From: an uncultured Eubacterium sp.
GTDB lineage: Bacteria > Bacillota > Clostridia > Lachnospirales > Lachnospiraceae
DNA: 11,140 nt
Direction: 5' to 3'
Assembly: GCA_900551945.1 (NCBI GenBank)
Contig: URYE01000078.1
Span: forward strand, 1 to 11,140
Shown here: positions 3,157 to 11,140 of the stretch, one piece after another
Numbering within the stretch: the first letter of the stretch is position 1
How the letters are laid out: each line of letters opens with the position of its first letter
Program-made: the position numbers and the translations under genes
Notes under the pieces: generated by a model
What the model was told of the DNA's origin: nothing
The model's input: only the letters and a program-made list of their open reading frames with translations
The model's database searches: none

Positions 3157-4098
3157 ATGATTAAAACAGAAAAGAAGATATTTAAGTCATCTAATGGGAA
3201 GAATAATGTATTTGTAAAGATATGGTATCCAGATAGTGAAAAATATAACGAACCCGTATGTGTACTTCAGATATGTCATGGTATGATTGACCACATTGAA
3301 AGATTTGATGCTATGGCAGAGTATATGGCACAAAGGGGAATACTTGTTGTAGGAAATGACCATATAGGACATGGACATTCTGTAGAAAATGAAAATGATT
3401 TTGGCTATTTTGCCGATGACAAAGACCCAGGAAGATATCTTGTAGAAGATATGCACAGACTTACAAAGATTATGAAGCATAAGTATCCAGACAAGCCATA
3501 TTTTCTTGCAGGACACAGCATGGGTTCATTTATGGTAAGAAGATATATTATTAAGTATGGTAAAGAACTTGATGGAACTGTAATTATGGGTACTGGCAAT
3601 CAAACGAAAATTCTTGTAAATACTGGGCGTATGCTGAGTGGTATTGTGGGAAGTTTAAAGGGTGACAGATTTAGAAGTAAGCTGATTAATGATGTTATGT
3701 TTGGTGCTTATAATAAGAAAATAAAGGGCGCAAGAACGAGCCACGACTGGTTGACAACTGACAGTGATATTGTAGATGCTTATGAAAATGATGAGAAGTG
3801 TTCTTATATTTTTACTATAAATGGTTATTATGGACTTCTTAATACGATTGCTTATGTAAGTGACTTTGATAATATTAAGAAAGCACCTATGGAATTACCT
3901 GTGTTAATGGTATCAGGTGAGGATGACCCGGTTGGTGGTTATGGAAAAGATGTTAAGAGATTGTATAATACTTTTAAGAAGCATTTTTTAGATGTTACAC
4001 TTAAGCTTTATAAGGGGTGTAGGCATGAGCTTCATAGTGAGAGTATTAAGGATGAAGTGTTTGAAGATATTTATAATTGGATAGTTGAAGAAATTTAA
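3157..4098 (+). CDS. Alpha/beta hydrolase, monoacylglycerol lipase / lysophospholipase-like (serine aminopeptidase S33 fold)
   Basis: This is a cytosolic serine hydrolase resembling PldB/monoacylglycerol lipases, which release a fatty acid from monoglycerides or lysophospholipids. Visible features in order are the oxyanion-region ICHGMIDH (39-46), the strand and turn GNDHIGHGHS (66-75), the nucleophile elbow GHSMG with S121, the acid in SGEDDP (D257), and the catalytic histidine H290 in CRHEL. The 313-aa length is usual for the family. There is no signal peptide. A strong AAAGGCGGGG ribosome site lies 4-12 bases before ATG 3157. A TATAAT-like hexamer at 3128-3133 in the 63-bp gap may provide its own promoter, but no good -35 box is seen, so read-through from the upstream genes is also possible. 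The substrate is inferred from family resemblance only. Confidence 0.88.
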   Translation: MIKTEKKIFKSSNGKNNVFVKIWYPDSEKYNEPVCVLQICHGMIDHIERFDAMAEYMAQRGILVVGNDHIGHGHSVENENDFGYFADDKDPGRYLVEDMHRLTKIMKHKYPDKPYFLAGHSMGSFMVRRYIIKYGKELDGTVIMGTGNQTKILVNTGRMLSGIVGSLKGDRFRSKLINDVMFGAYNKKIKGARTSHDWLTTDSDIVDAYENDEKCSYIFTINGYYGLLNTIAYVSDFDNIKKAPMELPVLMVSGEDDPVGGYGKDVKRLYNTFKKHFLDVTLKLYKGCRHELHSESIKDEVFEDIYNWIVEEI

Positions 4099-4125
4099 GT
4101 TAAAAAATATAAATATTGGCAGACA

Positions 4126-4342
4126 GAAAAATGGTATGTATTTTATGTACTGATGAATAAGTGTTAAGAACTTCTAAGATAAGCTGACAGGTTTTTTGCA
4201 AACGTACGAGTCGGAAAAAATGCGACGTCGTGTCGCTTTTTCCTAACTTGCACGTCCATGTGCAAGTTACTCTGTTTATTGACAGCTTATCTAAGATGTT
4301 CTAAACATTTATTATATATACATAAAATACATACCATTTTTC
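4126..4342. repeat. Palindromic element with nested long inverted repeats and two inner hairpins (copy 1)
   Basis: The ends are a perfect 24-bp inverted repeat (4126-4149 with 4319-4342). Inside is a second inverted repeat, 4168-4188 with 4281-4301 (18 of 21 positions pair), whose left arm contains TTCTAAGATAAGCTGA. Pairing extends outward in part (4159-4167 with 4302-4309), so the two arms together reach about 60 bp. Within them sit two adjacent hairpins. Hairpin A is 4213-4219 plus 4222-4226 with 4232-4243. Hairpin B is a perfect 10-bp stem, TAACTTGCAC with GTGCAAGTTA (4244-4253 and 4260-4269). The interior 4201-4270 is 47% GC (33 of 70 by hand count), clearly richer than its surroundings. 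No ORF is credible. It lies between convergent genes, so it could also stop transcription from both sides. MITE-like repeat or structured RNA are the main readings. Confidence 0.8.
4213..4243. terminator. Hairpin able to act as an intrinsic terminator
   Basis: GGAAAAA (4213-4219) and GCGAC (4222-4226) pair with GTCGC (4232-4236) and TTTTTCC (4237-4243), with a GTCGT loop and a two-base bulge. A-runs on one side and T-runs on the other make it terminator-like in both directions. It lies 115 bp past the alpha/beta hydrolase stop and on the far side of the degV pseudogene. It is also hairpin A of the palindromic element, so termination may be secondary. Confidence 0.4.
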
Positions 4343-4345
4343 AGC

Positions 4346-4394
4346 CTTTTTTACGTTCAAAATATTGCACCTACTTTTTTTAAGTGTAAAAAAG
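4346..4394. repeat. 9-bp perfect inverted repeat with T and A tracts, between the palindromic element and degV
   Basis: CTTTTTTAC (4346-4354) pairs with GTAAAAAAG (4386-4394) across a 31-base loop. It follows the degV reading direction (minus strand) by about 30 bases and could contribute to ending that transcript, but the large loop and AT-only stem make it a weak terminator. Confidence 0.3.
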
Positions 4395-4422
4395 ATATTT
4401 ATGTAAGAGAGAAGTGGGAATA

Positions 4423-5156
4423 TTATAGAAGTGTTTCGTATTTTGGCATTATGCCTATGCCGAGGGCGTAAGGGCCTGTGTGACAGGCGGTGGCTACTCC
4501 TATTCTTGTTGGGAAGGTTTCGGTGCTTTCTACGCATTTTATATTAAATGTATCTTCAACTACCTGTCGATATTCGTCACGTTCTTCAAAGTTACAACCT
4601 GAGTCAACATTAAACAGATAATCATTATAAGAAAGGTTATTATCAGAAAAATGTTTTTTACAACATTCAATCATACTAGCCTTTGCTTTTTTTCTAGTAC
4701 GGCTAATTCCACCTATATTTAACTCTCCATTTTTAAGAACAATAACAGGAAGAATACTTAACTTTCCGCTGATAAGGCGGGCAAGTTTTCCTATACGACC
4801 ACCTTTTTGAAGATAGTCAAGAGAGCCGACAGTAAAGTATATACGTCCCAAATCTGTCATTTTAGTAAGCACTTTTACAGCATCTTCATAATCAACATTG
4901 TTACGACTCATTCTGACAGCTTCATGCACAAATAAAGCCATAGAAGAAGAATTTTGCATAGAGTTAAAAATAGTTATCTTTGAGTCAGGATAATCTTCAA
5001 GAATTTGATTTTTGGCGTTAGTAGCTGATCTTTATAATATTTATCCCCGTCAAATGTTACATAAAGGGGAACAAGTTCAATATTTTGTGTTTCTGTGAAA
5101 CTCTTTGAAAGGTCACATGCTGTATCACTTATAACTTTAAACATAAAAAACGCCAT
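4423..5156 (-). pseudogene. DegV family (fatty-acid-binding) protein, disrupted by internal deletion and frameshift
   Basis: DegV/FakB proteins bind a fatty acid and present it to the kinase FakA. The N-terminal piece (from 5156, or more likely from the second ATG at 5144: MFKVISDTACDLSK..VTFDGDKYYKD) is intact up to about 5028-5030. From 5028 the family resumes in another frame as SATNAKNQILEDYPDSK, continuing into NSMQNSSSMALF and running normally to the stop at 4423. It includes YFTVGSLDYLQKGGRIGK and the final RIGVATACHTGPYALGIG with the conserved histidine. Between the two pieces the usual middle section, roughly 50-60 residues with the TSQPS and SSxxSGTYQ motifs that bind the fatty-acid head group, is missing. 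A single base error cannot explain this: both a deletion and a frame change are present. Downstream in-frame starts exist (ATG 4959), but the product would lack the binding core. Confidence 0.85.
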
Positions 5157-10930: not shown

Positions 10931-10995
10931 CTATAAGCTGTATTATACAATGAAAATAGGTAAAGAATTTTATAGTTGATGGCTGAAAGCTAAGT

Positions 10996-11140
10996 AGTTC
11001 TAAGATGTGCTGATTTAGACGATGAAGTCGAATGTGACCATAACTATGAGAAACATGCTTTGCGAGTTTCTCAAGTTATCGCGACAGTCACCAAGGTCTT
11101 GTGCAAGCACAGACTTTGGCTCGTTGTTCGCGTAAATCAA
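10996..11140. repeat. Structured palindromic element (copy 2), cut by the window end
   Basis: The left arm AGTTCTAAGATGTGCTGATTTA (in two parts, 10996-11010 and 11011-11017) matches the inner stem of copy 1 at TTCTAAGAT and GCTGA. TGATTTA (11011-11017) pairs with TAAATCA (11133-11139), closing the structure; the remaining right arm would lie past the window. Inside are a small hairpin (GAC 11018-11020 with GTC 11027-11029), a long interrupted stem (GTGAC 11034, ATAAC 11040, TGAGAAAC 11047 with GTTTCTCA 11066, GTTAT 11075, GTCAC 11087), and a hairpin CCAAGGTCT (11091-11099) with AGACTTTGG (11111-11119) extended by GTGC/GCAC. CGCGA (11080) can alternatively pair with TCGCG (11128). The interior is 47% GC by hand count (54 of 115). 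No credible ORF is seen. Confidence 0.7.

Follow-up and report, generated by a model that had tools for sequence, protein, structure and literature searches.

The TwoAYGGAY motif (Rfam RF01731) is already catalogued as a bacterial RNA motif, though it is unexplained. It is entered in a table of Weinberg et al. (2010) with 'RNA? y' and with 'n' for cis-regulatory (PMC2864571), and its Rfam type entry reads 'Cis-reg'. Based on a motif match to a CsrA-binding hairpin, RF01731 was proposed to bind CsrA (PMC4333381), and it is listed among the families given an extended consensus structure on covariation (PMC11701678, PMC7657543). The passages that name TwoAYGGAY in the literature covered, mostly open-access papers, describe it neither as a repeat nor as a mobile element. 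A conserved RNA is usually demonstrated by covariation in its stems. Among DNA repeats, the copies of miniature inverted-repeat elements (MITEs) share their ends. For template switching at inverted repeats, the signs listed are homogenization of the arms and inversion of the spacer (PMC8604942, PMC8794818).

Results

A TwoAYGGAY element between convergent genes

The window, that is, the whole stretch of 11,140 nucleotides that was analyzed, comes from an uncultured Eubacterium sp. of the Lachnospiraceae. Its sole cmscan match above threshold is to RF01731, which scores 106.4 bits (cut-off, 43) on the minus strand at 4153-4316; this match overturns the statement of an earlier note on this DNA that no named family matches. 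RsaF (plus strand, 24.6 bits vs a cut-off of 60) and STnc250 (20.8 bits vs a cut-off of 42) were sub-threshold Rfam matches and were set aside. The features of the locus are as follows:

3157..4098, plus strand, left neighbor, alpha/beta hydrolase (PF12146), convergent
4126..4149, no strand, left outer arm, pairs perfectly with 4319-4342 over 24 bp, beyond the Rfam model
4153..4316, minus strand, RF01731 TwoAYGGAY match, model positions 1-168 (cmscan 106.4 bits, gathering cut-off 43, E 9.6e-19)
4156..4189, no strand, left inner arm, pairs with 4280-4313 over 34 nt (85% complementary)
4173..4180, plus strand, TCTAAGAT, direct repeat at 4290-4297
4213..4243, minus strand, second hairpin, minus-strand loop ACGAC, without GGA
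4244..4269, minus strand, hairpin with hexaloop ATGGAC (loop 4254-4259, minus strand), ANGGAY type
4280..4313, no strand, right inner arm, partner of 4156-4189
4290..4297, plus strand, second TCTAAGAT, read from the sequence
4319..4342, no strand, right outer arm, 24 bp
4423..5156, minus strand, right neighbor, DegV family (PF02645), two frames (4423-4959 and 4974-5156), convergent

It is close to certain that the element belongs to RF01731. When the AYGGAY loops were used as a test, the long stem and the two hairpins were present, and the loop ATGGAC fits, whereas ACGAC does not; we call the window copy a divergent member of the family because of the curated model score and not because of its loops. 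The arms are nested. As the earlier note had stated, the outer repeat is perfect over 24 bp (4126-4149 against the reverse complement of 4319-4342), and an inverted-repeat search saw this outer pair as 4121-4149/4319-4347 (29 nt, 93%); judging from the copies of relatives, we take it as a putative copy-specific arm. The inner inverted repeat of that note also exists, but it is longer than the 21 bp given, with 4156-4189 pairing to 4280-4313 (34 nt, 85%), and the two adjacent inner hairpins were found at 4213-4243 and 4244-4269. Because TCTAAGAT is repeated directly at both places, the folded stem carries one A-A mismatch (U-U on the minus strand). By eye, similar mismatch motifs come back in the copies of relatives. 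A target duplication of nested insertions is an attractive origin for the T-T/A-A mismatch, but the motif and its offset differ among copies.

The RNA fold of 4110-4360 reaches -96.5 kcal/mol, compared to -45.5 ± 4.7 kcal/mol for 200 dinucleotide shuffles (z -10.84), and none of the 200 shuffles was as stable, which rules out a chance palindrome. A simple terminator is ruled out by the length of the element and its recurrence as a family; together with the shuffle result, these bear out the earlier view that the fold goes far past a terminator. The fold energy of 4126-4342 is nearly equal on the two strands (plus, -93.0; minus, -94.2). The interior G+C content, put at 47% before, was measured as 43% (4190-4279) or 41% (4168-4301); it is 33% for 4126-4342, 33% for the window, and 21% for the outer arms. 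The element had also been described as free of ORFs; a 78-aa minus-strand ORF (4301-4537) does overlap its right end, and we take this ORF as spurious.

The element lies between the hydrolase stop (4098) and the DegV-family stop (4423), and its arms begin 27 and 80 nt past these stop codons. A promoter scan of 4050-4460 gave four weak matches (2.0 expected), and three terminator-like hairpins were found on both strands at the element (0.1 expected). The DegV-family profile match is gapped between the two frames, and the relative G427 has a single 304-aa ORF there; the split frame is either a sequencing error or a pseudogene. G427 is the nearest genome by DNA in a family sample of 299 genomes and has the same DJ-1, carboxypeptidase, and DegV neighborhood. 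Two adjacent, oppositely oriented elements follow its DegV gene, on the same DegV side as in the window, and the gene beyond differs. Protein relatives of the hydrolase reach up to 84% identity, the best named ones being from a Lachnospira sp. (56%) and a Eubacteriales bacterium (55%), and HydA is the sole gene common to the window and a 19.5-kb stretch of G314. A second structured stretch, 10975-11140, is cut off by the window end and has no RF01731 match; it gives a gapped 49-column match to the left arm of the main element, ending TTCTAAGAT..GCTGA, and is possibly another copy in the same genome.

RF01731 copies in related genomes

All comparative results come from relatives, none from the window's own species. 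In a class sample of 391 Clostridia genomes, with the best candidates (at most 7) per genome scored, at least 35 genomes had an RF01731 match at E <= 1e-3, and at least 26 passed the cut-off. Five genomes were searched fully and carried 8, 18, 10, 4, and 11 copies. In the genus of G314, 27 of 29 genomes were positive, with 0 to at least 49 matches each; 49 is a lower bound because 66 of 91 candidates were scored in the richest genome. Many intergenic copies, which the earlier note had suggested searching for, are found in these related bacteria.

After three duplicates were removed, 121 loci were kept, and 111 of them could be placed between two ORFs (7 were too short and 3 lacked a gene call). 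The flanking genes were co-directional at 64 loci, convergent at 34, and divergent at 13. Orientation relative to co-directional genes was readable at 50 of the 64 loci, with 24 copies in the same and 26 in the opposite direction (p 0.89). By eye, the Rfam strand calls can be reversed (L080/L081, L036, L046, and L059) because the element, in structure, almost coincides with its reverse complement. Among the 26 of 34 convergent loci that were tested, the palindrome reaches both stop codons in 13, coming within 20 nt at both ends in 7 and running past the stops in 6, one of which (L103) rests on doubtful ORF calls. At L112, L127, and L144, the stop codons or 3' ends of the convergent genes lie inside the palindrome, and the ends of the two genes mirror each other.

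Copies cluster in places. These clusters lie among ordinary-sized ORFs of both orientations, and integron-like cassette arrays were rejected; a search for a plasmid copy gave no match. Three different hairpin elements of the RF01731 type follow one another on a single contig of G179 (L065, 4540-5320), which is among the genomes that gave no CsrA match.

Palindromic arms extend beyond the Rfam model

When copies were folded and aligned together with their flanks, the palindromes of relatives ran far past the Rfam model. Arm-to-arm alignment gave a median span of 643 bp at 67 loci of the G314 genus (quartiles 612-738, range 199-1038) and of 275 bp at 46 loci of other genomes (quartiles 225-325, range 133-794), the extremes of these ranges resting on automatic alignment. 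The window copy, spanning about 230 bp, is like those outside the G314 genus. Within one genome, the core and inner arms are common to the copies, which then diverge, and the arms of each copy stay complementary to each other. This private-arm pattern was seen in 11 G401 copies and in the 16 of 29 fetched G399 copies that were displayed. No outer ends common to the copies were found in G401 or G203, though their inner parts are common; the ends of the G399 copies are weakly shared, and in G314 an outer motif is common to 30 matches (0 in a reversed control). One 612-bp palindrome of G314 (L145, 17272-17883) has a collapsed or lost core, has kept its arms, and carries the G314 outer motif.

A scan for long palindromes over 17 stretches (281,607 bases) reported seven, of which four overlap RF01731 matches and three belong to the family by arms or fold; its threshold missed short-armed copies, including the one in the window. 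Read inward, the outer arms are C-rich and G-poor on both strands (L105-L144), a composition expected of Rho-loading sites. The arms of 25 G399 copies contain 31% C and 21% G, and those of 10 G401 copies 34% C and 18% G, compared to 24-27% C and 18-19% G in the flanks. The arms in the window (A+T-rich, 21% G+C) are without this bias.

Orthologous sites show inverted and replaced cores and empty sites

Pairs of the same locus in different species were taken from flank matches, which gave eight comparisons; a ninth (L155 vs G397) repeats one of the eight, and the first G402 copy was used twice. The core was unchanged in four comparisons, inverted in three, and replaced in one. The three inverted cores are 98%, 93%, and 89% identical to the inverted core of the partner species, compared to 70%, 67%, and 64% in direct orientation, so that inversion of the inter-repeat segment, one trait of invertible phase-variation elements (invertons), was found between species for the core in three of eight comparisons. 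In L152/L157, whose core is unchanged, the arms about 180-240 nt from the center match the opposite side at 98-100% and their own side at 85%; since this arm segment was inverted without the core, inversions of different depth have occurred.

Divergence of the arms was followed by placing each 60-nt segment freely in the other species, where unrelated segments average 67% with a maximum of 85%. In L096/L098 and in the second copies of G402 and G397 (G402_2/G397_2), the segment about 300 nt from the center falls to or close to background in both arms, with 56-76% identity to either side of the other copy (best match 61-76%). Within each copy, left and right arm are still 81-83% alike at this place, and same-side identity rises to 73-98% in the neighboring segments, outward and inward. 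The arms in most ortholog comparisons are recognizably conserved between species, so fast arm turnover is the exception at the distance studied. Turnover in L080/L081 was rejected because free placement gave 93-98% conservation. A comparison of the outermost 100 nt was discarded since the detected arm ends differ and put the segments out of register.

Sites with and without a copy were found as well. When a 10.2-kb stretch of G402 carrying two copies was matched to the 29 congeners, three of them, G414, G395, and G415, were seen to lack the second copy (about 700 bp), their flanks adjoining with no palindrome in between; the matches at this site overlap by 2 bp, a candidate target duplication that could not be pinned down in the sequences. 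Another 571 bp are present in G395 and missing from its close relative G415, a difference that reads equally as gain or loss, and the leftmost bases of this palindrome are also present at the empty site of G415. Insertion into a pre-existing palindrome was rejected, there being none at the G414 empty site. So was copying of the arms from the immediate flank, since by eye the arms of G402 are unlike that flank; the comparison of the two yielded no source for the new arms.

The elements of relatives have several traits of a MITE, being short, non-coding, and multi-copy, with inverted ends and variable presence at orthologous sites, and it is well supported that RF01731 is a dispersed palindromic DNA repeat in these genomes. 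Each of the two possibilities raised by the earlier note is partly borne out: the structured RNA by the match to RF01731, and the non-coding mobile repeat, in relatives only, by scattered copies with long inverted arms at sites that are occupied in some genomes and empty in others.

Mismatches in the arms show no G-U excess

Where RNA selection keeps pairing, G-U mismatches on the coding strand should far exceed A-C mismatches. The arms of 11 copies contain 52 G-U and 54 A-C mismatches and those of 29 copies 112 and 103 (total 164 vs 157), and the stems of 82 hairpins closed by ANGGA-type loops contain 7 and 12; these counts stand without a known-RNA positive control (four tRNAs were parsed, too few), and copies from the same genome do not count as independent. 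In the cases tried, the two strands have similar fold energies, with the largest gap at L145 (-363 vs -340).

The absence of a G-U excess, the random orientation, and the inversions and paired replacement of arms lead us to read the arm pairing as a product at the DNA level, most likely of template switching or arm-to-arm conversion. DNA copying is the best reading, though not a proven one, of how the arms are maintained: the changes at orthologous sites are signs of template switching but do not prove it, and recombination between the arms would serve equally. Compensatory changes in the stems had been expected to establish a structured RNA family. Paired changes do occur, but they are not decisive, given the missing G-U excess, the inverted cores, and the two comparisons out of eight in which an arm segment was replaced left and right.

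RF01731 co-occurs with CsrA

In the class sample, with the best candidates (at most 7) per genome scored, CsrA is encoded by 30 of 35 RF01731-positive and 94 of 356 negative genomes (p 5.6e-12); the positive genomes without it are G179, G221, G260, G278, and G323. In the family sample, with at most the 9 best candidates per genome scored, the corresponding numbers are 44 of 45 and 110 of 254 (p 1.7e-13), the one miss being G582; two of the 154 CsrA matches lie below the curated cut-off. This co-occurrence may reflect shared ancestry or motility. Under a strict rule, at least one ANGGAN hexaloop is present in 85 of 125 copies and two in just 4, and loops of the ANGGAY type come back in different genera. 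The ANGGA loops agree with the published proposal of CsrA binding, but the window copy keeps one GGA loop of two. Judged from these sequences, binding of CsrA to the RF01731 core RNA is plausible. G368, a genome with eight matches to RF01731, gave three to CsrA: one of 87 bits and two weaker ones with the same score of 53 bits.

Discussion

The window itself holds the RF01731 match and the nested arms. Its relatives show intergenic copies, occupied and empty sites, arms that differ within a genome, and orthologous cores that are inverted or replaced. With moderate confidence, we read the window element as a member of a scattered set of DNA palindromes of the insertion type, each formed around an RF01731 core, whose pairing would be kept at the DNA level and whose loops perhaps bind CsrA. 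Once inserted, a long hairpin would be a preferred place for replication forks to switch strands, or for arm conversion. Such switching could copy one arm onto the other, flip the center, and let both arms change together, and arm-to-arm copying would therefore maintain the pairing at the DNA level. The core, if transcribed, might bind CsrA through its ANGGA hairpin loops, in which case the repeat would scatter CsrA-binding sites through the genome. A bolder version, which we put forward as tentative and more probably wrong than right, is that these palindromes remake themselves: a core with CsrA loops inserts, gains long mirror arms private to its site, and these arms are homogenized, flipped, and replaced in segments by strand switching, so that covariation would arise without RNA function.

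The element could also be an ordinary MITE moved by the transposase of some insertion sequence, its arms being terminal inverted repeats that have diverged with age. The presence/absence sites, the spread from 0 to at least 49 copies within one genus, the few-hundred-bp span with no convincing ORF, and the outer motif of G314 (30 matches, 0 in the reversed control) all speak for it; the outer ends in G401 and G203 are nevertheless private where the inner parts are common, two of eight comparisons show an arm segment exchanged jointly at left and right, and target duplication is not clear at either the G402/G414 or the G395/G415 site. We regard this explanation as possible but doubtful. A regulatory RNA of the CsrA-sponge type, with pairing kept by RNA selection and copies arising as duplicated sRNA genes, would account for the published motif match to a CsrA-binding hairpin (PMC4333381), for the recurrence of ANGGAY loops across genera, and for CsrA being encoded by 44 of the 45 RF01731-positive genomes in the family sample. 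It sits poorly with arms and loop stems that lack a G-U excess, with strands that fold similarly, with random orientation to neighboring genes, with outer arms that are unrelated among copies of one genome, and with a second loop without GGA in the window, and it appears rather unlikely.

The position of the window copy between convergent genes, its terminator-like hairpins on both strands (three vs 0.1 expected), the 34 convergent against 13 divergent settings among 111 copies, and the 13 of 26 tested convergent loci where the palindrome reaches both stops are what would be seen if the element were a bidirectional terminator or insulator, kept for ending transcripts from both sides. This function is an unlikely explanation of the family, however, as the neighboring genes are co-directional for 64 of the 111 copies and divergent for 13, the element far exceeds the length needed, and the conserved loops are left unexplained.

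If the arm pairing of this dispersed palindrome comes from DNA copying, RF01731 would be a natural test of how far covariation misleads. Should the palindromes indeed remake themselves, bacteria would have their own equivalent of self-converting palindromes, and the covariation on record for RF01731 would have arisen largely through mutation. A strong and checkable co-occurrence with CsrA in Clostridia is also added to a proposal that, as published, rests on a motif match.

The locus resembles several known systems and departs from each of them. The window matches the sequence and structure model of Rfam RF01731 end to end and above the cut-off; the model has 168 positions and the family is treated as RNA, whereas the palindromes of relatives reach far past it, and the window copy has a single AYGGAY loop. 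As in CsrA-binding sRNAs of the CsrB/RsmZ type, GGA stands in a hairpin loop and the hosts usually encode CsrA; RF01731 differs in its many dispersed copies, in the absence of a visible strand-specific pairing constraint, and in often having a single GGA loop. With MITEs and with interspersed repeats of bacteria, among them the RU elements of enterobacteria, it shares short, non-coding, dispersed, intergenic copies with inverted ends, but the outer arms of RF01731 palindromes are private in several genomes. Homogenized arms, an inverted spacer, and paired multi-base changes are the likeness to template switching at inverted repeats, where the cited accounts describe short repeats or stems of RNAs, the spacer measuring a few bases (PMC8604942, PMC8794818); the RF01731 palindromes, in contrast, extend over several hundred bp, have cores of about 100 bp, and show these changes recurrently in many copies.
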